DNA from: Corallococcus sp. AS-1-6 | GTDB lineage: Bacteria > Myxococcota > Myxococcia > Myxococcales > Myxococcaceae | DNA length: 64,000 nucleotides | Direction of reading: 5' to 3' | NCBI RefSeq assembly: GCF_020037015.1 | Contig: NZ_JAIQDE010000004.1 | Location: 62,001 to 126,000 of the forward strand | Shown: positions 49,923 through 63,995 of the stretch, piece after piece | Layout of the letters: every line of letters begins with the position of its first letter | Position numbering within the stretch: the stretch's first letter is position 1 | Position numbers and translations under genes: made by a program | The notes under the pieces: model-generated | The model's input: the letters and a program-made list of their open reading frames with translations, nothing else | The model's database searches: none | What the model was told of the DNA's origin: nothing

Positions 49923-50114
49923 CTACAGGCCGAACGTGTACCGGACGCCTACGCCAGCCATCCGCTCGCGCTGGTTGGCCTCCGCGAAGCCGAAGAGGCC
50001 CAGGTTCTGCCGGATCCGCGCCCCGCTCTCCAGGCGCGCGTAGGCGCCAGTCAGGGAGGAGACGCCCGCCTGGGCCTCCAGGTAGCCGGTCCGCACCGGC
50101 ACGTCGCTCAGCAC
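49923..50114 (-). CDS. small beta-rich prophage protein (63 aa)
   Basis: The product MLSDVPVRTGYLEAQAGVSSLTGAY... ends GVGVRYTFGL, a last-strand pattern of outer-membrane barrels. It is too short for a complete barrel and lacks a signal peptide, so it may be a fragment of a surface-exclusion protein or an unrelated peptide. It lies 17 bp downstream of the gene at 50,132. Confidence 0.4.
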   Translation of the reverse strand: MLSDVPVRTGYLEAQAGVSSLTGAYARLESGARIRQNLGLFGFAEANQRERMAGVGVRYTFGL

Positions 50115-50641: not shown

Positions 50642-50693
50642 GGTGATGCTCCATCGAAGAGGTGGATGGGATGCACCATGAAGAAGGGGTGTC

Positions 50694-51224: not shown

Positions 51225-51280
51225 GGGAGCTTCTCCTGGTGCGGCGGGTGGACTGCACGGCACCAGGAGGAAGGGGCGGC

Positions 51281-51364
51281 TCAGCGGCGTGGCAGCCAGC
51301 GCGGATGGTCGCACTGGCCCAGGCGCTTGCCGCACAGGCGGCAGTGGGGGTAGCGGGCCGTCAC
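51281..51364 (-). CDS. 27-aa zinc-knuckle peptide
   Basis: The GTG at 51,364 overlaps the endolysin stop (GTGA). The peptide contains CRLCGKRLGQCDH, a CxxC...CxxH-type knuckle, and ends WLPRR. The coupled start and conserved-looking knuckle argue for a real gene. A GCCCCTTCC element follows its stop (51,269-51,277). Confidence 0.5.
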   Translation of the reverse strand: MTARYPHCRLCGKRLGQCDHPRWLPRR

Positions 51365-51849
51365 GACGTGAAGGGCAGCCGGCGGAAGCCCAGAACGTCG
51401 CTCCTGTACGCGACGCGCGGCTGCGTCTTCACGCGCGCGCCCGCGGCCTGGGCGTCGGCCAGGGTGAGCGTCTTGCTGCCGCCCCCGGACGCGCCCACCA
51501 CCACGCCCGCGCCCACGTACACCATGACGTGGTCCGGGTCGGGCCGCGTCACCTCGCGGCCGTCGCCCGTCTTCGCACCCGCGCGCCCGTACAGCACCAG
51601 GTCGCCGGGCAGCAGCTCCGCTTCGCTCGCCACCGGCGCGCAGACGTCCCAGAGGCGGTCCGTGTTGTGCGTCGCCCGCCAATCCGGGCCACCCACCTCG
51701 TGCAGGCACCAGGTGACGAGGCCGGAGCAGTCGAAGAGTCGCTGCTCGACGCCGGGCGCGCGGAAGCCCTTCGCGCCCCAGCGGTACGGCGCGCCCATCT
51801 GCTCCAGCGCCAGGGAGAGGAAGGCGGAGCGCTGTGAAGTGGTCGTCAT
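51361..51849 (-). CDS. NlpC/P60 endopeptidase, probable endolysin
   Basis: The 162-residue protein has the NlpC/P60 active site: Cys41 in FDCSGLVTW and His107 in DPDHVMVYVG, followed by a third polar residue region (VVVGASGGG). It has no signal peptide, as expected for a holin-dependent endolysin. Neighbours on the same strand are small membrane proteins. It should cut peptide bonds in host peptidoglycan at lysis. Confidence 0.85.
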   Translation of the reverse strand: MTTTSQRSAFLSLALEQMGAPYRWGAKGFRAPGVEQRLFDCSGLVTWCLHEVGGPDWRATHNTDRLWDVCAPVASEAELLPGDLVLYGRAGAKTGDGREVTRPDPDHVMVYVGAGVVVGASGGGSKTLTLADAQAAGARVKTQPRVAYRSDVLGFRRLPFTS

Positions 51850-51959
51850 GAAGACTCCGAGGGCGCGCGGGATGGGCTGGTGCCGGCGGCGCGCCACGCG
51901 GCCAGAACCAGGAGGACGCACGCCGAGGTGACGTGCGCGGCGAAGCACAGAAGGCTCAA
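51846..51959 (-). CDS. 37-aa single-helix membrane peptide
   Basis: A TTG start overlaps the previous stop (TTGA) and its TGA overlaps the endolysin ATG (ATGA). The peptide is LSLLCFAAHVTSACVLLVLAA, then a WRAAG...ESS tail: one membrane helix. Double coupling between a holin-like gene and the endolysin suggests a holin or antiholin part. Confidence 0.55.
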   Translation of the reverse strand: MSLLCFAAHVTSACVLLVLAAWRAAGTSPSRAPSESS

Positions 51960-52348
51960 GGGGCGGACCCGACGTCCTTGGGGCTGACGGCCTGAGCCGC
52001 GCGCTGGAGCTGGCGCCCAGCGTCGCGCTCACCCAGGAGCAGGGTGACGTGGTTGGCCATGCTGTTGAGCTGGGGGCGCGCCCCGCCCATCCAGTCCTCG
52101 AGGGCGCGGAGGCGCAGGTCCAGCAGCTTCAGCATCGCGCCGTGCTCGCTCACCACGCGCAACTCGGCCTTGATGTCGCGGACGTCCTGCGCCACCGCGG
52201 TCACGGACTGCACCAGTAGGGGCACCTGGTCGGCCGCCGCCTCGTGCTTCGTCTGCCGGCGGGACAGCATCCCGTTCAGCAACGGCACCAGGAGCTGGCC
52301 CACAGCCAGGACGAGGACGGCGCCGAACTCAGGGCTCATGGGGGGCAT
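51956..52348 (-). CDS. holin-associated membrane/coiled-coil protein (130 aa)
   Basis: A single N-terminal membrane helix (EFGAVLVLAVGQLLVPLLNGM) is followed by a heptad-rich region (QSVTAVAQDVRDIKAELRVVSE, LKLLDLRLRALEDWM). The ATG at 52,348 is favoured over 52,339 because the GCCCCTTCT element lies 8 nt before it, the spacing seen at other late genes. Similar TM-plus-coiled-coil proteins sit next to endolysins in many phages. Confidence 0.65.
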   Translation of the reverse strand: MPPMSPEFGAVLVLAVGQLLVPLLNGMLSRRQTKHEAAADQVPLLVQSVTAVAQDVRDIKAELRVVSEHGAMLKLLDLRLRALEDWMGGARPQLNSMANHVTLLLGERDAGRQLQRAAQAVSPKDVGSAP

Positions 52349-52356
52349 GCCCGGAC

Positions 52357-52365
52357 AGAAGGGGC
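52357..52365 (-). promoter_or_regulatory. late start-associated element
   Basis: Minus-strand GCCCCTTCT, 8 nt before the ATG at 52,348 and 4 nt after the upstream stop. Confidence 0.6.
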
Positions 52366-52369
52366 GGCG

Positions 52370-52588
52370 TCATCCGGGAGCACGTGGATTGCGCGGCTCC
52401 GCTGGCGCCCACGGCGTCCAGGCCCAGCGCGACACAGCGTCCGGCAGGCCCGGGACGAGCTCGCGCCGCCAGCGCTTCCCGTCTGCGCCGTGATGGAAGC
52501 CGCGCGGGATGTCGGCGCCGGAGGGACACCCAGGGACCGGACATGGCAGGTACAGCGGACCGGCGCGTGCGCACGGGCAGCGCGTCAC
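52370..52588 (-). CDS. small Cys-containing prophage protein (72 aa)
   Basis: The GTG start overlaps the upstream stop (GTGA). The sequence has MTRCPCARAGPLYLPCPVPGCPSG, a four-Cys segment that could be a zinc ribbon, followed by a Trp/Arg-rich part. No family was recognised. Confidence 0.5.
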   Translation of the reverse strand: MTRCPCARAGPLYLPCPVPGCPSGADIPRGFHHGADGKRWRRELVPGLPDAVSRWAWTPWAPAEPRNPRAPG

Positions 52589-52797
52589 GGAGCGCGCTCC
52601 AGGCGGCGTTCAACCCGCGCCAGCGCGGCGTAGAGCAGGAGCCCGGCGACGTCGGCGCGCATGGCCGCGTCCATGTGCCCATCCGAAAGCAGCACGCTGC
52701 CCCAGCACAGGAGGCCCAGCGCGGCGACATCCAGGAGTCGCACCACCACGAGGACCTTCGGACGGAGTGCGTCCGCCAACGTCGAGTGAGTCACCAT
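52585..52797 (-). CDS. two-helix membrane protein, holin candidate (70 aa)
   Basis: Two hydrophobic segments (VVVRLLDVAALGLLCWGSVLL and ADVAGLLLYAALARV) and a charged end (ERRLERAP) give a class II holin-like layout. It heads the endolysin gene group on the minus strand. The late element GCCCCTTCC lies 8 nt before its ATG. Confidence 0.62.
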   Translation of the reverse strand: MVTHSTLADALRPKVLVVVRLLDVAALGLLCWGSVLLSDGHMDAAMRADVAGLLLYAALARVERRLERAP

Positions 52798-52805
52798 GCT
52801 GAAGG

Positions 52806-52814
52806 GGAAGGGGC
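52806..52814 (-). promoter_or_regulatory. late start-associated element (variant)
   Basis: Minus-strand GCCCCTTCC, 8 nt before the ATG at 52,797. Confidence 0.55.
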
Positions 52815-52887
52815 GGGGCGGCATCAGCCGTGCACCACGCGCGCGTGTGGTGCACCCCGCGCCACGTTCCACGCGAGGCCCTCCCGA

Positions 52888-53203
52888 GTGAAGCCCTACT
52901 TCCAGTCCGACACCATCACCCTGGTCCACGGCGACTGCCGAGACCTGCTGCCCGGACTCCCGTCCGAATCCGTGGACGTCCTGCTCACCGACCCGCCCTA
53001 CGGCATGGCCTACGAGGCCAAGGGCCGGAGCGGCGCCGCTATCCGCGCGGACGGCTCCCGCCAGGGCATGCGCGTCTTCCGCCAGGCGCTCACCGCGGCC
53101 GGCCCCGCGCTGAAGGCGGATCTGCACGCGTTCGTCTTCTGTCATTGGCAGAGCTGGCCGGACTTCTTCGACGCGGCGTCCTCGCACCTGCGTGCGCGCA
53201 CGA
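52888..53203 (+). pseudogene. truncated DNA methyltransferase
   Basis: From GTG 52,888 the frame reads MKPYFQSDTITLVHGDCRDL, LTDPPYGMAYEAKG (motif IV) and HAFVFCHWQSWPDFFDAA-SSHLRA, the N-terminal third of a phage N6/N4 methyltransferase. After about 53,200 the similarity stops and the frame runs antisense through minus-strand genes. The motif I half (FxGSGT) is absent. It is on the plus strand inside a minus-strand cassette, so it is a decayed insertion. Confidence 0.65.
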
Positions 53204-53239
53204 GAGACAGGCGGATCCGGAATGCGTCAAGGATGCCCA

Positions 53240-53458
53240 TCACAGCCCCAGTTCCTTGCGCCATCCGGGCACGTGCACGTCCAACTCCGTCGGTCCGAAG
53301 CCACCGCGCTCGGCGAGCCGCTCCAGAGACTGGCTGGTGCCGTAACGCCGCGAGTAGTTGGCGTAGGCGCGCTCGGCCAGATTCCACGCGATGGTCCTGG
53401 GTATCCCGTTGTCGAGGTCCTTCTGAATCACGAGCAGCGGGAAGCGGCGCTCGTTCAT
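53240..53458 (-). CDS. hypothetical prophage protein (72 aa)
   Basis: The ATG at 53,458 overlaps the previous stop (ATGA). MNERRFPLLVIQKDLDNGIP, WNLAERAYANYSRRYGTSQSLERLAERGGF and ELDVHVPGWRKELGL suggest a small alpha/beta protein. No family was recognised. Its end lies about 40 bp from the break in the methyltransferase remnant. Confidence 0.6.
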   Translation of the reverse strand: MNERRFPLLVIQKDLDNGIPRTIAWNLAERAYANYSRRYGTSQSLERLAERGGFGPTELDVHVPGWRKELGL

Positions 53459-53898
53459 CGCGCGGCCTCCGCCTCGCGGCCGTCCGCATCCCATCCGTAC
53501 CAACCGAGGTGGAGGCGGCCGATGCCTTCCTGTTTGCGCTCCGGCTCCACGTGGTCGTTGAACAGCAGCCCATCCAGGAAGGAGGCCACGGGGTACAGCG
53601 CGCCCACCTCACGCCCCTCCTGGTCCGTCAGTGTCATCCGCCCGCGAGGCTGGGCGCTGCGCACGACCACGTCAGGGTGCCGCGTGCAGTGCAGTTCGAA
53701 GGCGCGGTGCTCGTCTCGCTCGGTCAGGGCGCCATCGACCAGGACATGGCGGAGGAGGATGCCGTCGCGGGGATGGGCGACGGCGACCCGGTCAATCTCC
53801 CGGCCCTCGGCATCAAGGACCCGGGCAAGGATGCAAGAGCAGCCGCACGGAAGCGGGGTGCCCACGCTGGCGTAGTAGGTCGCGAACTGGTCGATCAT
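53455..53898 (-). CDS. hypothetical prophage protein (147 aa)
   Basis: The product MIDQFATYYASVGTPLPCGCSC contains a CGCSC cluster, then beta-rich sequence (ARVLDAEGREIDRVAVAHP, FELHCTRHPDVVVRSAQPRG) and an aromatic end (GIGRLHLGWYGWDADG). The late element lies 7 nt before the ATG. No family was recognised; the Cys cluster and HxxCxxH may bind metal. Confidence 0.6.
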   Translation of the reverse strand: MIDQFATYYASVGTPLPCGCSCILARVLDAEGREIDRVAVAHPRDGILLRHVLVDGALTERDEHRAFELHCTRHPDVVVRSAQPRGRMTLTDQEGREVGALYPVASFLDGLLFNDHVEPERKQEGIGRLHLGWYGWDADGREAEAAR

Positions 53899-53905
53899 GC
53901 CCGGG

Positions 53906-53914
53906 AGAAGGGGC
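53906..53914 (-). promoter_or_regulatory. late start-associated element
   Basis: Minus-strand GCCCCTTCT, 7 nt before the ATG at 53,898; the intervening bases end CCGGGC-ATG. Confidence 0.6.
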
Positions 53915-53949
53915 GCCGGACTCAGGTGGGGGGGGGAAGTGGCGCTCGC

Positions 53950-54378
53950 TCATCGCCGTCCCCCAAGGGCCTGCTGCATGGCCAGGAAGGCGGCAGCTCC
54001 GTACTCGTCCGCGCGCAACTCCTCGCGCCAGTCGTTGCGGAGGGAGCGCAGCGGGCGACCGGAGATGTGCCCCACTTCGTGGCCCAGGACGTAGGCGACG
54101 CGCAGACGGTCCGCCCGAGCGCTCGCCCACCAATGCACGACCGGCGTCTTCTTCTCCGTCTCCACGAAGGCCCAGCCGCCCATCTCGCGGATGCTGGCGA
54201 GCATCGCCGGCCACTCCGCGATGTCGTCCGGCTTCGCGCCCATGGGGCCGAAGAAGGCCCGGCCCAAGCACTGCGGCGTGCGATGCCGCACGAAGCGCAC
54301 GCGCGGAAGGCCGCGCTTCAGTCCGCCGATGATGAGCGCGCTGGCCGGGCCAGGCTTCCGTCTCGTCCCGCTGGTCAT
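53950..54378 (-). CDS. ImmA/IrrE-like metallopeptidase
   Basis: The ATG at 54,378 gives 142 residues with HEVGH (100-104) in AYVLGHEVGHISG and downstream acidic ELRADEYGA (about 120-128). This is the zinc-peptidase arrangement of ImmA/IrrE proteins. Relatives cleave phage or ICE repressors. No repressor gene is adjacent on this strand; the XRE protein at 49,281 is the nearest candidate partner. It heads the minus-strand cassette and carries the late element 7 nt before its start. Confidence 0.72.
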   Translation of the reverse strand: MTSGTRRKPGPASALIIGGLKRGLPRVRFVRHRTPQCLGRAFFGPMGAKPDDIAEWPAMLASIREMGGWAFVETEKKTPVVHWWASARADRLRVAYVLGHEVGHISGRPLRSLRNDWREELRADEYGAAAFLAMQQALGGRR

Positions 54379-54385
54379 GCCCGCG

Positions 54386-54394
54386 AGAAGGGGT
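54386..54394 (-). promoter_or_regulatory. late start-associated element (ACCCCTTCT)
   Basis: Minus strand, 7 nt before the ATG at 54,378; followed by CGCGGGC-ATG. Confidence 0.55.
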
Positions 54395-54706
54395 GGCGTT
54401 GGCACGCGTCGTGGCGGGCAACGGCCGTGCCACGGGACCATGTAGGATAAGGGGTGATTACAGTCCCATTGAACAGGGCGAGCCGCCCCCTGGGGTGGGA
54501 AACCCACATGTGCGCCTAAAAATTGGATTGCTCGGCGCGCTGCAATCTTGCGATGCGAATTCCTCGCGGTTTTTCCGAGGGGAACTGACAGACGACCCCC
54601 CATTTTTTGGGGCCCTGCGCGTTCCTGGCGGCCCGCAGGCGTGTTCGGCGCCTTCGCACGTGGCCGCGTCCGGCCCGAAGTCCGCGTGCGCTGGTGGCCC
54701 GCTGGC

Positions 54707-54715
54707 GCCCCTTCT
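54707..54715 (+). promoter_or_regulatory. late start-associated element
   Basis: GCCCCTTCT, 7 nt before the ATG at 54,723. Confidence 0.6.
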
Positions 54716-54722
54716 GGCGAGC

Positions 54723-55286
54723 ATGACCACTCTCGACCAGCAGCGACGCCTCCAGCAGCTTGCCGACGACCTTCGCGGATGCGACCTCGTCGTCTACCCG
54801 GTGACCGGCCCCGGCTTCGCCGGCCTGGCGCTGGCGGCGCGCGACGGTTCAGGCCGCACTGCGACTCTGAGCTTCGACGACGCCCTCCGGGCGCGGCTCG
54901 GACCGAGCCCGCGGGGACTCGTGATGGCCGCGCGCGCCGCCCTCGGTCTTCCCGCCAGCGCCGACCAGGCCGAGCCGTCCGACGTGGACCGCAAGGTGGG
55001 CGGCTTCCACATCGAGGTGAGCGCTGACATCTCCAACGCCGCCGCCGAGATCAAGGCGCTCGATGCCCAGATCCAGGAGACGGCGGACGCCATGGCCAAG
55101 GTCTCGTCCGGCCCCGTCGCCCCGTCCGACCTCACGGGACTCATCAACGCGTCGGCGGCTGCCTTCCGTGCATTGTTGGTCCGGGACAACTCGGGCCGTT
55201 ACGTGGACGAGAATGTGATGAACCAGGTGGCCGACGACGTCGCCGCCATGGTGGCCTACGCGCGCGCCATCGCCTGCCGCGAGTAG
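54723..55286 (+). CDS. hypothetical protein, first gene of the structural operon (187 aa)
   Basis: The first half reads TTLDQQRRLQQLADDLRGCD, VVYPVTGPGFAGLALAARDG and DDALRARLGPSPRGLVMAARAALG. The second half is helical (SADISNAAAEIKALDAQIQETADAMAKV) and ends near ENVMNQVADDVAAMVAYARAI. It has no signal peptide. Its place directly before the terminase genes suggests a packaging or regulatory accessory protein; no family was recognised. Confidence 0.65.
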   Translation: MTTLDQQRRLQQLADDLRGCDLVVYPVTGPGFAGLALAARDGSGRTATLSFDDALRARLGPSPRGLVMAARAALGLPASADQAEPSDVDRKVGGFHIEVSADISNAAAEIKALDAQIQETADAMAKVSSGPVAPSDLTGLINASAAAFRALLVRDNSGRYVDENVMNQVADDVAAMVAYARAIACRE

Positions 55287-55288
55287 CC

Positions 55289-55297
55289 GCCCCTTCT
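55289..55297 (+). promoter_or_regulatory. late start-associated element
   Basis: GCCCCTTCT, 2 nt after the preceding TAG and 7 nt before the GTG at 55,305. Confidence 0.6.
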
Positions 55298-55304
55298 GGT
55301 GGGG

Positions 55305-55886
55305 GTGTCCCCCCCGCGCGGCTACAGCCCGAAGCCCCCCTCCGGCAGTCCGGCCGGAGGGAAGCGCGCGCAGAAGTACTCCGGGCCCGCCAGCACCCTC
55401 ACGTACAAGATTCAGACGGCCATCATCGCGGAACTGCGCCAGGGCGCTACGAAGCGCATGGCGGCCGCGCTCGCGGGCACCACCGAGGCGCGGATCCAGA
55501 ACTGGCTGCGCCGTGGGCGCGAGGCCATCGAGGGCGGCAAGCGCAGTCGCTACACCGAGTTCGTTGTGGAGGTGGAGCGCGCCCAGGCCGAGTTCCAGAA
55601 GAGCCGGGTGAAGGACGCGCTGGACGCCATCAGCGACAAGACGATGGACGGCCGCGGCGCCCGCTGGTTCCTGGCGGTGACCGCGCCCAAGGACTTCACC
55701 ATCCCGCGCGAAGCCACGGCGCCCACGAGCGCCGGGTTCGGGCCCGTCTTCGAGTTCGTCACCCCGGACGAGGCGCGCGCGAAGCTGGACGAGAAGCTCG
55801 CCACCTTCATCGCGCAGCACCTGAAGGCCGAGTCGCTGAAGGATGCGCCGCCAGAGCCCCCGTCCGAGGACGGCGATGGGGACTGA
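55305..55886 (+). CDS. terminase small subunit
   Basis: I chose the GTG at 55,305 over 55,299 because it restores the 7-nt spacing from the late element. The 193-residue protein has an N-terminal helix-turn-helix (IQTAIIAELRQGATKRMAAALAGTTEARIQNWLRRGREA), an oligomerisation-like helix (FVVEVERAQAEFQKSRVKDALDAI) and an acidic end. It would bind the packaging site and stimulate the large subunit, whose gene overlaps it by 11 bp. Confidence 0.8.
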   Translation: MSPPRGYSPKPPSGSPAGGKRAQKYSGPASTLTYKIQTAIIAELRQGATKRMAAALAGTTEARIQNWLRRGREAIEGGKRSRYTEFVVEVERAQAEFQKSRVKDALDAISDKTMDGRGARWFLAVTAPKDFTIPREATAPTSAGFGPVFEFVTPDEARAKLDEKLATFIAQHLKAESLKDAPPEPPSEDGDGD

Positions 55887-57396
55887 CGCGGGCGTTGCAC
55901 AGGCCGGAGAGTCACTGCTCGACGGCATCCCCGTCATCACAGCGGACACCCACGGCCACCACTCCGTCATCCAGCAGGCGGCGCTCGCGGTGTCGGCTTC
56001 GACGGGCATCGCCACGGGCTTCTCGGGCGCGCTGGGGCTCACCGCCCAGGACCTGCTGCTGCTCTACTACGAGCACTGCTACTGGCTGCGCCCGGTCCAG
56101 CGTCCGCCCGAAGTCTTCCGCACCTGGTTCTTCATGGGCGGGCGTGGCACCGGGAAGACGTACGCGGGCGCTGCCGCGGTCATCGACGAGGCCCGCGCGG
56201 ACCCCGAGGCGCGCATCCTCATCGTCGGGCCGACGTACAGCGAGATCGTGAAGAACCAGTTGGAGGGGACGAGCGGCGTCCTCACCATCTCCCCACCCTG
56301 GTTCTACCCGCGCCTTGAGAAGTCGCGCCGCCGCCTCGTCTGGCCCAACGGCGCGCAGGCCACGTGGCTGCCGGCGAAGAACGCGGACAAGTTCCGCGGG
56401 CACCAGTACACGTTCATCTGGGCGGACGAGCCGGTGGCGTGGAAGGGTGACGCTGTCGCCGTCTACAAGGAATGCCGCGCCGTCAACCGCCTCGTCAGCT
56501 CGCGCATGCGCACGCGGGGCCTGTCGGCGCGCATGGTCATCACCACCACGCCCGCGCCGACGGTGCTCTTCCGGGAGATGCTCAGCGACCGGGATGGACT
56601 GGTGCTCGCGCGGAGCTCCACGCTGGAGAACATCGCGAACCTGGACCCAGCCTACGAGCGCTACGTCCGGCGCGTGATGCATCTGCCTGAGGGACGGCGC
56701 GAGTTCATGGGCGAGCTGTCCTTCGACCTCGACCCGGCGCTGTACCGGGGCGTCAGGTGGAACGACTCGCGCGTGAAGCCGAAGGACGCGCCGAAGGAGT
56801 ACGACGCCATCATCGTCTCGGTGGACCCGGCCACCGGCGAGAAGAAGGGCGCGGACATGCACGGCATCATCGTGATTGGCATCCGCCTGGAGAAGGACGG
56901 GCTGGACCACGTCTACGTCCTGCAGGACGCGTCGCTGCGCACGCCGGAGCCGGAGGCCTGGGCCCGCGAGGCGGTGAAGTGCTTCAACGCCTGGGCGCCC
57001 GCCGCGAAGAAGCGCACCAACGGGAAGCCCAACGCGTGGGTGTTCGCGGAGAGCAACACGGGCGGCTCCATGGTGAAGAGCACCATCCGCACCGTGGAAA
57101 AGGTGAAGGTGCTCACCGAGCGTGCCATGCAATCGAAGGCCGAGCGCGCATCCCCCGTCTCCTCCTACGCGAAGGCGGGCCTCGTCCACATGGTGGGCAA
57201 GCACGACAAGTTGGAGGCGCAGCTCGCGAAGTTCACCGGTCAGGAGGGTGGGCACGCGCGAGATGACCGGGCGGACGCCTTCGCGTGGCCCATCTACAAG
57301 TACGTCATCCCGAAGCGCCGGAACGTGGGCGCGGCGGGCCGCGTGCGGGGCACGGAGGACGCGGTGTTTGAGGATGTGTCGGACAACGACGAGTAG
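55876..57396 (+). CDS. terminase large subunit
   Basis: The 506-residue protein has Walker A GRGTGKT (89-95), Walker B YTFIWADEP (about 178-186), a coupling motif VITTTPAP, and the RNase H-like nuclease with IIVSVDPATGEKKGADMHG, VFAESNTGGSM and DRADAFAWP as acidic sites. It packages DNA into proheads and cuts it. Start ATG 55,876 lies within the small-subunit gene. Confidence 0.93.
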   Translation: MGTDAGVAQAGESLLDGIPVITADTHGHHSVIQQAALAVSASTGIATGFSGALGLTAQDLLLLYYEHCYWLRPVQRPPEVFRTWFFMGGRGTGKTYAGAAAVIDEARADPEARILIVGPTYSEIVKNQLEGTSGVLTISPPWFYPRLEKSRRRLVWPNGAQATWLPAKNADKFRGHQYTFIWADEPVAWKGDAVAVYKECRAVNRLVSSRMRTRGLSARMVITTTPAPTVLFREMLSDRDGLVLARSSTLENIANLDPAYERYVRRVMHLPEGRREFMGELSFDLDPALYRGVRWNDSRVKPKDAPKEYDAIIVSVDPATGEKKGADMHGIIVIGIRLEKDGLDHVYVLQDASLRTPEPEAWAREAVKCFNAWAPAAKKRTNGKPNAWVFAESNTGGSMVKSTIRTVEKVKVLTERAMQSKAERASPVSSYAKAGLVHMVGKHDKLEAQLAKFTGQEGGHARDDRADAFAWPIYKYVIPKRRNVGAAGRVRGTEDAVFEDVSDNDE

Positions 57397-57402
57397 CGTC
57401 CC

Positions 57403-57411
57403 GCCCCTTCT
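57403..57411 (+). promoter_or_regulatory. late start-associated element
   Basis: GCCCCTTCT, 6 nt after the terminase stop and 8 nt before the portal ATG at 57,420. Confidence 0.6.
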
Positions 57412-57419
57412 GGTGGGGC

Positions 57420-58775
57420 ATGGCCTCCCTCTTCCGCCGCGCGCTCACGGCCCTGGGCTTCCTGCCCACCCGCCAGGGACCTCTTGTCCACGGCCTGCCC
57501 ATCTTCACGTTCGCCCCGCGGCGCGGCAGCCGGGAGGTGCTCGCCGCGTACCGGGAGAATGGCTGGCTGCGCGTCGTCGTCGACACCGTGGCGGACGCTG
57601 TGGCTACGCCCCGGTGGAAGGTCTACAAGCGCGTCGGCGGCGGGCTGGGCAAGTCCGGCGCGGACCCGCGCTGGCGCAGTCACCTCGCGGCCGAGCGTCG
57701 GAAGTCCCTGGCTGACGGGGTGCAGTCCGGCGCGCTGGTGGAGTTGCCCGCGCACGAACTGCTCAACATCCTGGAGGCGCCGCACCCCGAGCACCCCGGG
57801 CGCGAGCTGCTCAAGCTGATGCAGCTTCACCTGGACCTGGTGGGCGAGACCTTCCTCTGGCTTCGCCTGGGGATGGACGGGCGGCCGGTGGGCTGGGAAG
57901 TGGTGCCGCCCCACTGCGTCTACCAGACGCCTCAACCGGGCCGGCAGGAGTTCGTCCTCTCGTACAACCAGGCCCACGTGGCAGTTCCGGCCGCACACAT
58001 CATCTGGCTCAAGCACCTGGATCCCGAGAACCCCCACGGTCGCGGCGCCGGCCGGGGGCTCGCAGTCGGGGACCAGTTGGACACGATGGAGGCCATCGAC
58101 CGGAGCGCGAAGTCCGTCTTCGAGCGCGGCGGCGTGCCGCAGGCCATCGTCGGCTTGGACACCAAGAGCGGCGACGTCGACCAGGAGGAGAATGCGGAGG
58201 ACCTGGAGAAGCGCTTCAACGAAGCGCACCGCGGCCCGGACAACGCCGGGAAAATCTGGTTCGCCCCCGCCGGAGTGACGCTCGCCCAGGTGAGCGTGAA
58301 CTACCGCGAGTTGCAGGCGGAGGAGCTCGCGAAGGGCCAGCGTGCCTACGTCCGCCAGACGTACAACGTGCCGCCGGAGTTGGTGGGCGACCTCTCCAGT
58401 AGCAACCGCTCCACCTCTGAGGATGCCAAGTACCACCTGGCGGAGCACGCCGTGGTGCCGCGCCTGGAGTTCCTCCTGGCCTACTTCCAACTCCTCCTGG
58501 TGCCGCTCGTCGACCGGGACGCCATCCTTGACTACGAGGACCCGCGCCCCCAGCAGTGGGAGCGCGTCTTCCGCCTCATGACGACGCCCATCACTGAGGG
58601 CTTCTTCTGGAACGAGGTGCGCGTGATGGCCGGCTTCCAGCCGGACCCTGCGTTGGAGGGCGTCCGGGGCGCGCCACTCCCGGGCGCGGGCGGAGGGAAC
58701 AACGTGGCGAGCGCGGGCGCGAACGCGACGCCGGACGCACCGCGCGACCGGCGGGGTGAGGAGGGGCGCGTGTAG
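57420..58775 (+). CDS. portal protein (HK97-type)
   Basis: The 451-residue protein has MASLFRRALTALGFLP, REVLAAYRENGWLRVVVDTVADAVA, HELLNILEAPHPEHPGRELLKLMQLHLDLVGETFLWL and ENPHGRGAGRGLAVGDQLDTMEAIDRSAKSVFERGG, the sequence course of phage_portal proteins. The wing/stem part contains FNEAHRGPDNAGKIW and YNVPPELVGDLSSSNRSTSEDAKYHL. It forms the dodecameric ring through which DNA enters. Confidence 0.92.
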   Translation: MASLFRRALTALGFLPTRQGPLVHGLPIFTFAPRRGSREVLAAYRENGWLRVVVDTVADAVATPRWKVYKRVGGGLGKSGADPRWRSHLAAERRKSLADGVQSGALVELPAHELLNILEAPHPEHPGRELLKLMQLHLDLVGETFLWLRLGMDGRPVGWEVVPPHCVYQTPQPGRQEFVLSYNQAHVAVPAAHIIWLKHLDPENPHGRGAGRGLAVGDQLDTMEAIDRSAKSVFERGGVPQAIVGLDTKSGDVDQEENAEDLEKRFNEAHRGPDNAGKIWFAPAGVTLAQVSVNYRELQAEELAKGQRAYVRQTYNVPPELVGDLSSSNRSTSEDAKYHLAEHAVVPRLEFLLAYFQLLLVPLVDRDAILDYEDPRPQQWERVFRLMTTPITEGFFWNEVRVMAGFQPDPALEGVRGAPLPGAGGGNNVASAGANATPDAPRDRRGEEGRV

Positions 58776-58787
58776 CGGCGGCTGGCC

Positions 58788-58796
58788 GGCCCTTCT
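58788..58796 (+). promoter_or_regulatory. late start-associated element (GGCCCTTCT)
   Basis: It lies 8 nt before the ATG at 58,805; followed by CTCCGGAC-ATG. Confidence 0.55.
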
Positions 58797-58804
58797 CTCC
58801 GGAC

Positions 58805-59824
58805 ATGCGCACTCTCTCCATCCGCAGGAAGCTGCTCGACGGCTCTGCCCCCACCGCCACGGGGATGCAGGCGCCGGTGTTCCAGATCACGTCCACGAAG
58901 CTCGACCGGCACAGGGACCGAATCCTCGGCGTCAAGGCCGAAGCCCCCGAGTTCAAGCGGCCGCTCCTGTGGGCGCATGCCTCCTGGGAGCCCGCTCTCG
59001 GCAAGGCGCGGTGCTACCAGGAGGGCGGCGTCTGGGTGATGGAGCCGCAGTGCGACGGCATCGGGCAGCGCTCCCAGGAGGTCGAGGCCAAAATCAAGGC
59101 GGACACGCTCGACGCGTGCTCCATCGGCTTCATCCCCGTGGAGGGGCACGACCCGGTCCCGAATACCGAGGGGGGCTTTGACTATCCGCTCGTGCACCTG
59201 GTGGAGGTCTCCATCGTCAACGTGGGGGCGAACGAGGATGCCGTCCGCCTCCGCTCCATGCCGGGCCAGGCTGGCGCCACCGACCCTCTGATGGTGGTGG
59301 CGCTCAACGCCGTGGCGACGACGCAGGCGACGCTGGCCGCGGCGGTCATGAAGATGGCCGCCGCCAAGGACGCCAGCGAGGAAGCGCCGAACGAGGAGCC
59401 GGCCCCTGCCGAAGGGGAGGGGGCCGAGGGCGAGCCGACCGACGACGAGGAGTCCGAGGCGATGACCCCGAAGGACTTCGTCGCGGCACTCGTCGCCCAC
59501 GCCGAAGCCGGCCAGGCGCTGGCGGCTGCGTTCCTGGAGACGGAACCCGAGGACGAGGAACTCGTCGCCATGGCCGAGGGCCTGCGTGACGGGCTGCCCA
59601 CGGACATCGAGGCCGCGAAGGGCTGGCTCGCGCGCGCCGCTGAGACCGAGGAGCCGGAGGCTGCCGAGCCCGAGGACAAGCAGGACGAGCCGCTCCCGGA
59701 GGAGGAGGCGAAGGCGATGCGCCAACTCGTGCGCAAGGCGTACGGCTTCAGCGTTGCGTACGTCCGCGACCTCTCGCCCCGTCAGCTTCGCGAGTTCGCC
59801 GCGTTCGCGAAGCCCGCCGCGTAG
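58805..59824 (+). CDS. HK97-type prohead protease fused to an acidic scaffold
   Basis: The N-terminal about 150 residues follow U35/HK97 prohead proteases: PVFQITSTKLDRHRDRILGV, LLWAHASWEPALGKA (catalytic His), DACSIGFIPVEGHD (Ser) and LVHLVEVSIVNVGANEDAVRL. Residues about 160-300 are Ala/Glu-rich and helical (EEAPNEEPAPAEGEGAEGEP), a likely scaffold. The end is VAYVRDLSPRQLREFAAF. The product should direct shell assembly and then cleave itself and the capsid precursor. Confidence 0.85.
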   Translation: MRTLSIRRKLLDGSAPTATGMQAPVFQITSTKLDRHRDRILGVKAEAPEFKRPLLWAHASWEPALGKARCYQEGGVWVMEPQCDGIGQRSQEVEAKIKADTLDACSIGFIPVEGHDPVPNTEGGFDYPLVHLVEVSIVNVGANEDAVRLRSMPGQAGATDPLMVVALNAVATTQATLAAAVMKMAAAKDASEEAPNEEPAPAEGEGAEGEPTDDEESEAMTPKDFVAALVAHAEAGQALAAAFLETEPEDEELVAMAEGLRDGLPTDIEAAKGWLARAAETEEPEAAEPEDKQDEPLPEEEAKAMRQLVRKAYGFSVAYVRDLSPRQLREFAAFAKPAA

Positions 59825-59828
59825 TGCC

Positions 59829-59837
59829 GGCCCTTCT
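59829..59837 (+). promoter_or_regulatory. late start-associated element behind the protease gene (GGCCCTTCT)
   Basis: It lies 4 nt after the protease stop but 38 nt before the capsid ATG, which has its own CTGGAG site. Confidence 0.45.
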
Positions 59838-59875
59838 CTACCCCAACCCCTTTCGCTGTTCCTGGAGTCCTGACG

Positions 59876-61075
59876 ATGCGGACCACGAGCCCGACCCCGA
59901 AGCCCGCCACCACCCCGGCCACGCCTCCTCCCCTGCCCGAGCCGATGCAGCGCGCCGTCAACGCGGCCGTCGTCAAGGGCGTCGAGGAGGCGCTCGCGTC
60001 GCGCCCCAACCCCGCCCAGGGGCCCTTCACCAGCGGCGCGCGTGACCTGCAGATCGACCTCACGAAGGACGACCGGCGGGCGCGCCTCAACGCCGCGCTG
60101 GGTCTGAAGATGAAGCAGGCGTACCTCAAGCAGGCCCAGCACTTCGGACGCGGCAACGACGAGCAGTTCAAGGCGCTCGACGCCTTCCTCGTCCGCGTCA
60201 AGGCGTCCGGCCAGTTCGCCGGAGTCTTCGAATCGGGCGGGGCCTTCACGCGTGAGACGGTCACCTCCGAGCTCGTGGAACTGGCGCGGCCGAACTCCAT
60301 CCTCCTGGCCGCCGGCATCCGGACCATCTCCGGCTACGGCGCGCGCCTGACGATGGGCACCATCAACGAGGGCGTGAAGGTGTACTGGGTGGCCGAGGGC
60401 GAGCCGGGCACCCCCTCCACCGTGAAGGACGGGACGCTCGTGCTCACCGCCCACAAGCTGATGGCGCTCGCGCGCATCTCCAACGACCTGCTGCGGCTGT
60501 CCGCCATCGACGCGGCGGCCATCATCGGCGCGGACATGGCCGCTGCCATCGGCCTGGAAATCGACACCACCGGCTTCAAGGGCAAGGGGCCGAAGCGTCC
60601 GAACGGCATCCGGAACCAGATGGACCAGGCCGCGCGCACCGCCTCGGCCGGGACCACGGCGACCAACAAGGTCGCCGACACCGACGGGGTCATGGGCGCG
60701 GTCGCCAAGGCCTGCATCCCCGGTGGGCTCAAGGCGAACAAGGGCTTCTACTACTCGTCGACCGACACGTTCCTGTCGCTACGGCAGGCCCGCGACAACG
60801 CGGGCTGGCTCTTCCCGGACCTGCGTGTTGGGGAGAGCCCGACGCTCAACGGCTTCCCCTACTTCTACTCGGAGACGCTCGCGGACGATGGGGTGCTGGG
60901 CTTCGGTCTGGCCAACCAACTCATCCTGGGCGAGGCCCTCCCGCTGGAGACGACCATGGGGGAGAACGGCACCGACTTCTCCGCGGACATGGTGACGATG
61001 CGCGGCATCACCGAGGTGGACTTCCTGCTGCGCTACAGCAAGGCGTTCGCCGAGAAGACTGGCGTCGCGTACTGA
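59876..61075 (+). CDS. major capsid protein (HK97 fold)
   Basis: The 399-residue protein has a Pro/Thr-rich N-terminal arm, then a delta-domain-like helical region (to about residue 115) that protease may remove. The HK97 core follows: GAFTRETVTSELVELARPNSILLAAG, NEGVKVYWVAEGEPGTPS, SNDLLRLSAIDAAAIIGADMAAAIGLEID, GFPYFYSETLADDG, LGFGLANQLILGEAL, and the closing VDFLLRYSKAFAEKTGVAY. The ATG follows CTGGAGTCCTGACG, a good ribosome-binding site. Confidence 0.92.
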   Translation: MRTTSPTPKPATTPATPPPLPEPMQRAVNAAVVKGVEEALASRPNPAQGPFTSGARDLQIDLTKDDRRARLNAALGLKMKQAYLKQAQHFGRGNDEQFKALDAFLVRVKASGQFAGVFESGGAFTRETVTSELVELARPNSILLAAGIRTISGYGARLTMGTINEGVKVYWVAEGEPGTPSTVKDGTLVLTAHKLMALARISNDLLRLSAIDAAAIIGADMAAAIGLEIDTTGFKGKGPKRPNGIRNQMDQAARTASAGTTATNKVADTDGVMGAVAKACIPGGLKANKGFYYSSTDTFLSLRQARDNAGWLFPDLRVGESPTLNGFPYFYSETLADDGVLGFGLANQLILGEALPLETTMGENGTDFSADMVTMRGITEVDFLLRYSKAFAEKTGVAY

Positions 61076-61109
61076 GCGGCCACGCGCCGCAGAAAGAGGA
61101 CCGCAACCG

Positions 61110-61544
61110 ATGATTCCCCAGAACGTTCACATCGGCGCCTACATCTCGTGCGCCAACCAGGGCCTCGCGCCCGCCGCCCAGGCCGCCGGCACCCGCAGCG
61201 GCAGCGCCATCGACGTGTCGGCCTTCCAGTCCGGCGTGCTGGTGGCCAACCTCGGCGCCACCAGCGGCACCCCCACCACGACGAGCGTCACCTACTCGCT
61301 GGAGTCGAGTGCCAACGGGACGGACGACTGGACCGCCGTGGTGGACCTGGACGGCAACGCCCTCCAGGTGGCGACCGCCGCCGGGAGCAGGGCGGTGGAG
61401 TTGGACTTCAACCTCCAGTTGCTGAAGGCCGACCACCCGTACCTCCGCGTCAAGGAGGTGGTGGCCTTCACCGGCGGCTCCACGCCCACCGTCGTCACCG
61501 GCGTCTCGCTGGTGCTCGGGGGCGGCCAGCGCCTGTCCGTCTAG
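61110..61544 (+). CDS. head decoration-like beta protein (144 aa)
   Basis: The protein is almost all beta strand: SAIDVSAFQSGVLVANLGAT, TTTSVTYSLESSANGTDDWT, SRAVELDFNLQLLKADHPYLRVKEVV, VVTGVSLVLGGG. It directly follows the capsid gene with AAAGAGGACC as ribosome-binding site, and a strong hairpin follows. Capsid decoration proteins often occupy this place; a fibre-like head protein is an alternative. Confidence 0.6.
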   Translation: MIPQNVHIGAYISCANQGLAPAAQAAGTRSGSAIDVSAFQSGVLVANLGATSGTPTTTSVTYSLESSANGTDDWTAVVDLDGNALQVATAAGSRAVELDFNLQLLKADHPYLRVKEVVAFTGGSTPTVVTGVSLVLGGGQRLSV

Positions 61545-61545
61545 C

Positions 61546-61618
61546 GCGGGCACGTCTCACCCCCTCCTCCACGTGCCCGCCGGGCCGGGGTGGCTGTCTG
61601 CCACCCCGGCCCTTTTTC
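61546..61618 (+). terminator. double hairpin with T-run after the capsid gene pair
   Basis: A first stem (GCGGGCACGT, 61,546-61,555, with ACGTGCCCGC, 61,571-61,580) is followed by a second 12-bp stem (GGGCCGGGGTGG, 61,582-61,593, with CCACCCCGGCCC, 61,601-61,612) and TTTTTC. The next ATG is only 1 nt beyond. It should terminate or attenuate transcription between the abundant capsid genes and the connector genes. Confidence 0.75.
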
Positions 61619-62278
61619 ATGGCCATGGCCCAGGAAGATCTCCTCACCGCCGACCTGCTCCCGGGGAACGTCCGCGACGCGGCGGACCCGGCCCGGCTGC
61701 CGCTGCTCATCACCGCCGCGTCCTTGGCTTTGGCGGGATACGTGGGCTACCCGCTGCACCGCCGCGCGGGCGTCGTGGAGTCCGTGGCCTCGCCAGGCGG
61801 GCGCTACTTCTGGCTGAGATCTGGAGGCGTGCGCGAGGTGACGCGCGTGCAGGTGTGCGGCGTGGAGGTGCCCACCAGCGGCTACGCGCTGGAGTCCGCC
61901 CTCATGGGACGTGTCCTCTCGCGCGGCGAGGCATGGCCTTTCACGGGGCGCTACTCGCGCGGAGTCTCCCCGACACCGCAGGTGGTGGAGGACACGGGTG
62001 AACTGCTCGTCACCTACGACGCGGGTTGGGTGACGCCCGGGCAGAAAGACCTGGACGCGGCCCTCGTGGTGGACCTGCCGGGGGACCTGCAGTTGGCGGC
62101 GCAGATGGTGGTGGGCGCCCTGGTGCACGGGGACGGTGCGGAGGAGGCCGTATCCGAGTCCATCGGCGGCACGTCCCTGACGCGAGCCACGGACGAGGAC
62201 GGGCAGTTGCCTGCGGTGCCCGCTCGCGCGCGGCGCCTGGTGGCCCGCTACCGCCGCCCGCGCCAGGGGGGCGTGTGA
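61619..62278 (+). CDS. head-tail connector (gp6-like adaptor)
   Basis: MAMAQEDLLTADLLPGNVRDAADPARLPLLITAASLALAGYVG begins like phage head-tail adaptors. The beta middle follows (GRYFWLRSGGVREVTRVQVCGVEVP, GELLVTYDAGWVTP), with a helical end (PGDLQLAAQMVVGALVHGD). Either ATG 61,619 or 61,625 may be used. It abuts the terminator hairpin. Confidence 0.72.
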   Translation: MAMAQEDLLTADLLPGNVRDAADPARLPLLITAASLALAGYVGYPLHRRAGVVESVASPGGRYFWLRSGGVREVTRVQVCGVEVPTSGYALESALMGRVLSRGEAWPFTGRYSRGVSPTPQVVEDTGELLVTYDAGWVTPGQKDLDAALVVDLPGDLQLAAQMVVGALVHGDGAEEAVSESIGGTSLTRATDEDGQLPAVPARARRLVARYRRPRQGGV

Positions 62279-62598
62279 TGCTGCTGGGCCACCGACTCAA
62301 GCAGCGCTTCTGGCTCGCGCGCCTCCTGGGCGTCAACGACCGCGGGCAGGAGGACTTCTCCGTGCCCACCGTGCACTCCTGCCGATGCGAGGGCAGCGTG
62401 AAGCGACTCGTCACCACGGACGGAACCGACGCCACCTCCGAGGCCGTCCTCTACACCACGGTGGAGGTGGGGCCTGGGGACGCCCTCTGGCTGCCCGGCG
62501 CCACGCCGGGCGACCTCAACACGCGGCGCCGCCCGCTGCGCGTCAACCCGTGCCCCAACATCCGCGGGGAGACGGACCACTTCGAGGTGTACGTCTGA
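62278..62598 (+). CDS. head-completion/stopper-like protein (106 aa)
   Basis: The product MLLGHRLKQRFWLARLLGVND is followed by beta segments (HSCRCEGSVKRLVTTDGTDATSEAVLYTTVEVGPGDALWLPG) and NPCPNIRGETDHFEVYV. Position between the adaptor and tail-terminator genes, with 1-bp overlaps on both sides, fits a stopper (gp16/FII-like). The sequence alone does not prove it. Confidence 0.65.
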   Translation: MLLGHRLKQRFWLARLLGVNDRGQEDFSVPTVHSCRCEGSVKRLVTTDGTDATSEAVLYTTVEVGPGDALWLPGATPGDLNTRRRPLRVNPCPNIRGETDHFEVYV

Positions 62599-63002
62599 TG
62601 GCCTCCGCGCTGACGGACGTGGAACTCCACGTCGCCCAGGTGCTGGACGCGGCCGCGCTGGGCGTCTCCCGGACGGCGACGCCCCCCAGCCTCTACATGG
62701 GCCCCATGCCCCTGTCTGCGCCGCCCCTCGCTGTGGCCGTGCGTGAGGTGCCGGGCGACGCGCCCGAGGACTACATGGGCACGGGGCGCAGTTACCTGCA
62801 GCGGGACGTCCAGGTGCTGGTGCGCGGACGGGACTACCTGGAGGCCCAGGCGCTGGCTCGCGAGTGCTGGCGCACGCTGCACCTGGTGGCCGTCTCCGGC
62901 TACGTCTCCTGCCGCGCGCAGGGCCTGCCGTCCTACCTGGGCGAGGGCGACAACCACCGGCATCGCTTCGTCTTCACCGTCACGCTCGCGTACGCGGCCT
63001 GA
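62598..63002 (+). CDS. tail terminator/minor tail-like protein (134 aa)
   Basis: Helical start (TDVELHVAQVLDAAALGV), then PSLYMGPMPLSAPPLAVAVREVPG, SYLQRDVQVLVRGRDYLEAQALARECWRTLHLV and HRHRFVFTVTLAYAA: the alpha/beta pattern of tail-terminator (gpU/DUF3168-like) proteins. It overlaps the previous gene by 1 bp. Confidence 0.68.
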   Translation: MASALTDVELHVAQVLDAAALGVSRTATPPSLYMGPMPLSAPPLAVAVREVPGDAPEDYMGTGRSYLQRDVQVLVRGRDYLEAQALARECWRTLHLVAVSGYVSCRAQGLPSYLGEGDNHRHRFVFTVTLAYAA

Positions 63003-63014
63003 CGGCGAGCGGTC

Positions 63015-63023
63015 GCCCCTTCT
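63015..63023 (+). promoter_or_regulatory. late start-associated element
   Basis: GCCCCTTCT, 8 nt before the ATG at 63,032; followed by CTTCGGAC-ATG. Confidence 0.6.
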
Positions 63024-63031
63024 CTTCGGAC

Positions 63032-63478
63032 ATGCCCGTCCGCGTGAAGCTCGACCTTCAGCCGCTCCTCAAGTTGCGCCAGCAGCCTGAGCGCGTGCTG
63101 GGGCGGCTGGAGAAAGCCTGCTACGCGACCGTGCGCCACGCGCTGGACCTCTCGCTGTTCGACGTGCCCCGCGGCGACAGGACCCCGGACTACGACGAGA
63201 ACGGGAACGTGAAGCCGTCGGAGCGCCCCCTGGCGGAGACCGGCTTCCTGGACGGGCCCGAGTACCACATGGACCGGCGCCTCTCCGTCACCTGGGTGGC
63301 GGGCTACGCGCACCACGCGGCCGGCGCCATCCACGAGGGCGTGCACTGGGACAGGGACATCGTCAACCCGGAGCCGCACTTCCTGAAGAAGGCCTTCCGC
63401 CGCTCCCGCTCCATCGGTCGCAAGGGTGTGAAGGCTGCCCTTGAGCAGGCGTTGAAAGAGATGTTCCCCCCGAAGTGA
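63032..63478 (+). CDS. neck/tail-completion-like protein (HK97 gp10-like, 148 aa)
   Basis: The product has MPVRVKLDLQPLLKLRQQPERVLGRLEKACYATVRHALDL, then PLAETGFLDGPEYHMDRRLSVTWVAGYAHHAAGAIHEG, and a basic end (HFLKKAFRRSRSIGRKGVKAALEQALKEMF). This sequence of a helix, a YAxxxHEG site and a basic tail is usual in phage neck/minor capsid proteins of the gp10 type. Assignment depends partly on position. Confidence 0.72.
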   Translation: MPVRVKLDLQPLLKLRQQPERVLGRLEKACYATVRHALDLSLFDVPRGDRTPDYDENGNVKPSERPLAETGFLDGPEYHMDRRLSVTWVAGYAHHAAGAIHEGVHWDRDIVNPEPHFLKKAFRRSRSIGRKGVKAALEQALKEMFPPK

Positions 63479-63491
63479 AAGGAATTGAGAC

Positions 63492-63950
63492 ATGGCCGGA
63501 GAACCCGAAGTCCTCTACGCGCAGCGCATCCACTTCACCGCCTTGGCCGCGACCACGCTCGTGAACCTGGAGGATGGCACGGTCGAGGCGCCGTCCACCG
63601 AACTCGACGGCATCAGCGAGTGCAGCGTCGCCACGGCCGTCGACAGCGTGGACACGAACTACTTCGGCAGCGACGGCTACAAGCGCAACGCCGCCACGCT
63701 CCGCGGGCTCACCCTCAACGTCAGCGGCCACCGCATCAAGGGCAACGCCGCGCAGGACCTGCTGGAGACGCACATGCAGTCCGGCCAGGTGGGCTACCTG
63801 CACGTCATCAAGGATGAGGACGCGACGGCGGGCCAGCGCGGGAAGCGGTACGCGGTGAAGGTCATGTCCTTCGACTCCGGCGGCCCGTCCTCCGACGTGG
63901 ACAAGCTGACCGTCTCGCTCACCGGCCAGGGCGCCCCCGTCAACGTGTAG
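63492..63950 (+). CDS. major tail (tube) protein
   Basis: The 152-residue protein is beta-rich (ELDGISECSVATAVDSVDTNYFGSDG, ATLRGLTLNVSGHRIKGNAAQDLLETHMQSG, GYLHVIKDEDATAGQRGKRYAVKVMSF, DKLTVSLTGQGAPV), fitting the tail-tube fold. It has its own AAAGGAATTGAG ribosome-binding site. GCCCCTTCC follows its stop (63,953-63,961). Confidence 0.78.
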   Translation: MAGEPEVLYAQRIHFTALAATTLVNLEDGTVEAPSTELDGISECSVATAVDSVDTNYFGSDGYKRNAATLRGLTLNVSGHRIKGNAAQDLLETHMQSGQVGYLHVIKDEDATAGQRGKRYAVKVMSFDSGGPSSDVDKLTVSLTGQGAPVNV

Positions 63951-63995
63951 TCGCCCCTTCCTCATTCCACACCGCCCTCATTGGAGAAGGCAGAC

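Follow-up and report, generated by a model that had tools for sequence, protein, structure and literature searches.

Leaderless mRNAs are known, for example that of lambda cI, and the late mRNAs of T4, which are made from -10-only late promoters (gp55; TATAAATA), generally have Shine-Dalgarno sites. We set these and two further systems, phiEco32 gp36 and the start-associated sequences of cluster K mycobacteriophages, beside a recurrent 10-nucleotide (nt) element in the late region of a prophage of Corallococcus sp. AS-1-6. The window, by which we mean the whole stretch of 64,000 nt that was analysed, covers positions 62,001 to 126,000 of contig NZ_JAIQDE010000004.1. With a rough probability of 0.82, we read the element as the core of a single-element late promoter for a phage sigma factor, from which most virion genes would be expressed as leaderless mRNAs.

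The gp36 promoters of phiEco32 consist of a single element, tAATGTAtA, with the start 6-8 bp downstream and no -35 element (PMC8948821). Our case has in common with them a phage sigma, one short element, no -35, a predicted start a few bases downstream and a position ahead of middle and late genes, here late ones only. It differs in that the element here is G+C-rich and unrelated in sequence, and that up to about 18 sites occur per prophage, mostly at a start codon. The missing -35 of phiEco32 is ascribed to an absent region 4 (PMC8948821), whereas some of the phage sigmas considered here retain a recognisable region 4. The -10-only character of the predicted promoters is shared with T4, where late transcription requires gp33, which couples it to replication; no search for such a factor was made here. 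It may be added that in read-through RNA of T4 gene e the ribosome site is covered by a leader hairpin, and that RNA from the late promoter loses the 5′ arm of this hairpin (PMC3014915). The cluster K sequences (GGGATAGGAGCCC) have a Shine-Dalgarno-like core and, at about half of the sites, 17-bp inverted repeats upstream (PMC3203893). The likeness to them proposed in an earlier note on this DNA stands as an analogy of position, both being short asymmetric repeats just before many gene starts and conserved across a phage clade, but the consensus is unrelated, neither conserved upstream sequence nor inverted repeats are present here, and a sigma gene co-occurs. With leaderless mRNAs such as lambda cI the common points are a 5′ end predicted at the AUG, no Shine-Dalgarno sequence and a strong preference for ATG; the difference is that here a virion module with a dedicated phage sigma is predicted to be leaderless in most of its genes.

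The element and its two classes of site

The conserved unit is 10 nt long, C[G/A]CCCCTTCT, and is oriented as the gene that follows it. The earlier note had described a recurrent nonamer; the recurrence is real, but the conserved unit is longer than was thought. The pattern CRNCCCTTYY was used for counting between positions 50,001 and 64,000 of the window, with 300 dinucleotide-preserving shuffles as the control. It has 14 matches, 10 of them with a start triplet 7-8 nt downstream, as against a mean of 0.95 matches (maximum 6) and 0.06 with a start triplet (maximum 1) in the shuffled sequence. The remaining 50 kb of the window hold 4 matches and none with a start triplet. In the host genome the exact nonamer GCCCCTTCT shows no enrichment (154 copies, 191 for the reversed control). 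RCCCCTTCT-N7/8-ATG is found 15 times in the 9.5 Mb of the host genome, 8 of these inside the prophage; all 8 end in CATG, while 6 of the 7 outside it read GATG.

All 13 copies named in the earlier note were found, with coordinates, strand and spacing as it gave them. The four that it had placed behind stop codons form a second class, each with a leader and a Shine-Dalgarno sequence downstream. We call these sites leadered, and those that stand directly before a start codon the leaderless class after their predicted mRNAs; in the latter the unit is followed by N3-4, then GGGC, then ATG. The sites of the window are listed below in window coordinates, with protein lengths in amino acids (aa).

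50682..50691, minus: CACCCCTTCT, leadered; 40-nt leader with GGAG; ATG 50641 of a 169-aa gene; homologous sites in L003, L010, L011 and L030
51269..51278, minus: CGCCCCTTCC, leadered; 44-nt leader with an inverted repeat over the Shine-Dalgarno sequence; ATG 51224 (90 aa); homologous site in L011
52357..52366, minus: CGCCCCTTCT, leaderless class; ATG 52348 (130 aa); same gene start in L003, L010, L011, L134 and L135
52806..52815, minus: CGCCCCTTCC, leaderless class; ATG 52797 (70 aa)
53906..53915, minus: CGCCCCTTCT, leaderless class; ATG 53898 (147 aa)
54386..54395, minus: CACCCCTTCT, leaderless class; ATG 54378 (142 aa)
54706..54715, plus: CGCCCCTTCT, leaderless class; ATG 54723 (187 aa)
55288..55297, plus: CGCCCCTTCT, leaderless class; GTG 55305; terminase small subunit (phrog_4102, E 1.4e-11)
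57402..57411, plus: CGCCCCTTCT, leaderless class; ATG 57420; portal protein (PF04860, E 4e-32)
58787..58796, plus: CGGCCCTTCT, leaderless class; ATG 58805; prohead protease (PF04586)
59828..59837, plus: CGGCCCTTCT, leadered; 38-nt leader with GGAG; ATG 59876; major capsid protein (PF05065)
61607..61616, plus: variant CGGCCCTTTT, leaderless class; ATG 61625 (217 aa); missed in the earlier note; the homologous start in L003 has CGGCCCTTCT
63014..63023, plus: CGCCCCTTCT, leaderless class; ATG 63032 (148 aa)
63952..63961, plus: CGCCCCTTCC, leadered; 34-nt leader with GGAG; ATG 63996 (145 aa)

The series runs on beyond the window end, at 67,604 (plus) and 72,819 (minus). Before the NlpC/P60 endolysin gene (about 51945-51963, minus) the exact element is absent and a split version, CGCCCCTTGAGCCTTCT, overlaps the upstream stop codon; the homologues of this gene in relatives have a leadered copy. 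An isolated CCCTTCT at 56843-56849 (minus) lies antisense within the large terminase gene with no gene start after it, and is probably due to chance.

For conservation, the related set comprised 15 viral contigs found by a portal-protein scan, 14 further loci from genome contigs and 145 genomes from the same order. Long segments were retrieved for 20 prophages, and 17 prophages, that of the window included, make up the motif clade. In all 14 relatives with an intact portal start, the portal ATG is preceded by the element at the customary spacing, once as CCCCTTTT, and the gap upstream of the portal gene cannot otherwise be aligned; the nonamer is kept at the same gene starts while the intergenic remainder is not. 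With this retention and the lack of host enrichment, neither of the two outcomes that the earlier note had named as refuting was obtained. Within the motif clade the element is confined to the late genes, its sites lying on both strands, no more than about 13 kb from the portal gene, and pointing at the next gene. The same motif is absent from phages Mx8 and Mx4, where CCCCTTCT is counted 0 and 1 times.

Over 42 related loci we found 271 sites of the leaderless class, with a start codon after a gap of 6-9 nt that is nearly always 7 or 8, together with 104 leadered sites, about 28-54 nt before a gene with a normal Shine-Dalgarno sequence, and 36 other sites; the boundary is imperfect, a few leadered entries being leaderless-class sites with very short reading frames. 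Removal of near-duplicates left 159 and 48 sites of the two classes. Of the 159, the gap is 7 nt in 71, 8 nt in 86 and 6 nt in 2, and the start codon is ATG in 150 and GTG in 9. A start codon at 7-8 nt follows the motif heptamer in 96 cases and the heptamer read backwards in none. No Shine-Dalgarno sequence is present at a working distance in the leaderless class, this stretch being occupied by the element itself.

Proposed promoter architecture and the phage sigma factor

Positions -60 to -13 of the deduplicated sites show zero conservation and positions -12 and -11 at most 0.15 bit, and hence no -35 box is present. Upstream k-mers, at fixed or free spacing, gave none clearly above shuffles, and thus neither a -35 nor another upstream box. 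The leadered class is informative for the start point because no start codon there fixes the bases after the element. A pyrimidine-purine step occurs at +6/+7 in 30 of its 48 sites, compared with 2-19 at other offsets, and at +6/+7 or +7/+8 in 43. This is the position taken by the C-A of CATG in the leaderless class, so the predicted transcription start is placed where the start codon of that class lies. The simplest reading is that transcription would begin 7-8 nt beyond the element, a point occupied in the leaderless class by the A of the ATG.

In the mechanism that we propose, host RNA polymerase, equipped with a sigma-70-family factor that the phage encodes, would recognise a promoter core at about -17 to -8. 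For most late genes the start point would be the A of the start codon, with C at -1 and A at +1, and the mRNA would for that reason be leaderless. A minority of genes, including the major capsid gene, would receive a leader, roughly 20-50 nt long, that contains a normal Shine-Dalgarno sequence. Each virion gene, lysis gene or small gene group, on either strand, would have its own promoter, which is why the element would track gene starts and sit behind stop codons. The start-point position, the leaderlessness and the recognition of the element by the phage sigma are what we infer from sequence comparison.

The candidate factor emerged from gene clustering over 21 prophages, where one protein is present in 16 of the 17 that bear the motif and in none of the 4 that do not. 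It is a sigma-70-family protein with regions 2 and 4 that matches the PHROG sigma family; its profile aligns with RpoS over regions 2-4 (E = 2.2e-12), and Pfam Sigma70_r2 was found in 6 of 8 cases. In a Foldseek search the best solved matches were all sigma factors, for a model of low confidence (pLDDT 64, pTM 0.35). Its gene lies beyond the window end, on the minus strand at 71593-72603 in the window frame (L001:13593-14603), and is the presumed reader of the element. Of the 145 genomes, 23 hold a motif-clade portal, and 21 of these have a strong match to this sigma; among the other 122 there is none (Fisher 2e-23). The viral-contig search used a single sigma protein as its query, and this query alone brought up two further contigs (L134, L135), each with many sites of either class. 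About 200 nt upstream of the sigma gene an element at 72819-72828 (minus, window frame, L001) is followed 8 nt on by the ATG of a 22-codon frame. G069, L134 and L135 likewise have similar elements upstream of the sigma, a hint that the phage sigma may activate its own gene.

Prophages with a more distant portal show no enrichment of CCCCTTCT. In these sister-clade myxobacterial prophages a diverged sigma gene of their own lies immediately upstream of the terminase genes (Pfam Sigma70_r2, E 1e-9 to 1e-12; a profile made from four loci detects it in 17 of 18), and so the count of 21 of 23 against 0 of 122 covers the motif-clade sigma type only. Their start-associated motif is a different one, AAANYGYCCCCATTGAAG, around CCCCATT, with 70 copies against 10 reversed and start codons peaking 10-11 nt after CCCCATT. 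A different sigma going with a different element is as the promoter reading predicts. The loci with the diverged sigma and this motif are as follows.

Viral contigs: L138-L142, L150, L151
Genome contig: G070:C1:3976029, 3980770, 3988400

The suggestion of the earlier note that the element may be part of a late promoter thus gains support from the missing -35, the pyrimidine-purine peak, the confinement to the late region and the co-occurrence of a phage sigma. A different origin of the same mRNAs would be an endonuclease that cleaves long late transcripts after the element. Such cleavage would yield both classes and would suit the sites behind stop codons; the placement gene by gene on both strands, however, suits promoters equally, and the co-occurring factor is a sigma, no nuclease candidate having been noted though no search was aimed at one. 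We consider RNA processing very unlikely.

Several points weigh against the promoter reading. The whole case is built on sequence inference, and the single structural model of the sigma is of low confidence. The element is very G+C-rich for a region that would have to melt. A promoter alone does not account for the GGGC ahead of the ATG, which only the leaderless class has. Two genomes, G057 and G115, hold the portal without a strong sigma match. A 276-aa membrane protein (14 of 17 prophages) and a structural gene (16 of 17) also co-occur with the motif.

The gene of the 276-aa protein lies at 73271-74101 in the window frame (L001:15271-16101, plus). The start of the protein resembles the glycine loop of myxobacterial Ser/Thr kinases (YRFGRRLRVGEGLGRVYEA), the rest of the kinase is seemingly absent, and a membrane helix is likely.

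Translation and RNA structure

The constant 7-8 nt to the start codon and the lack of a Shine-Dalgarno sequence in the leaderless class would also be expected if CCCCUUCU in the mRNA were bound by a part of the ribosome, a phage RNA-binding protein or a small RNA in place of the Shine-Dalgarno sequence. Pairing with 16S rRNA was rejected: the best complement in the host 16S has 7 contiguous pairs including wobble, and AGAAGGG is absent from it. The likeness of the element to the 16S 3′ end (CACCUCCUUUCU) may be a coincidence. Moreover, the 104 leadered sites (of 375 in the two classes) stand ahead of genes with normal Shine-Dalgarno sequences, and translation leaves the +6/+7 peak of such sites unexplained. 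The translation device considered in the earlier note is therefore not supported, and nothing points to the phage RNA-binding protein that it also named. We consider a start element acting at the RNA level very unlikely.

A further alternative is a hairpin that masks the start, formed between GCCC in the element and the GGGC ahead of the AUG, or between the 3′ side of the element and the Shine-Dalgarno sequence, as a stand-alone translational operator. Four contiguous pairs are possible in 68 of the 159 leaderless-class sites and five in 12, several leaders have long inverted repeats over the Shine-Dalgarno sequence, and the accessibility of the latter is 0.18 with the element compared with 0.38 without. 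The GCCC/GGGC stem, however, shows no covariation at its variable pair, since 26 of the 27 sites with A at motif position 2 still have C at -1, and 39 of the 159 sites have no stem. For masking of the Shine-Dalgarno sequence by the first 7 nt of the leaders the swap control differs weakly (p = 0.06), and the capsid-gene leaders are mostly unstructured. As an explanation standing by itself, this is highly improbable.

The same folds could instead be an addition to the sigma promoter. The element would act as a promoter in DNA, and in read-through RNA the same bases would fold over the start site, by pairing of GCCCC with the GGGGC ahead of the AUG or of UUCU and its flank with the Shine-Dalgarno sequence. 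Transcripts not started at the promoter of the element would then be locked for translation, and virion genes would be translated only from the leaderless or short-leader mRNAs made with the phage sigma. Some leaders here would resemble that of T4 gene e if the masking structure is real. We regard this dual role as possible but doubtful.

Meaning for the myxobacterial prophages

In a partial literature search we found no paper joining leaderless transcripts with a phage-encoded sigma factor, which, the search being partial, is weak evidence of novelty. It may be noted that a prophage of this myxobacterial group is also present in a locus of the related set labelled Comamonas (L023, BNCN01000005.1); the organism is probably misnamed, since its genome (G107) groups with the family of the window's own genome.

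If the promoter reading is true, a widespread and unstudied group of prophages of the myxobacteria, which are predatory bacteria of the soil, would have a late-gene switch of a known type, with its own sigma and a -10-only promoter. The group would also be an example from nature of phages predicted to make the majority of their virion proteins from leaderless mRNAs. Gene starts would also be corrected, as start callers that seek a Shine-Dalgarno sequence could misplace these genes. The two sister clades, which differ both in their sigma and in their element, would make a natural system for studying the joint change of a sigma factor and its promoter.

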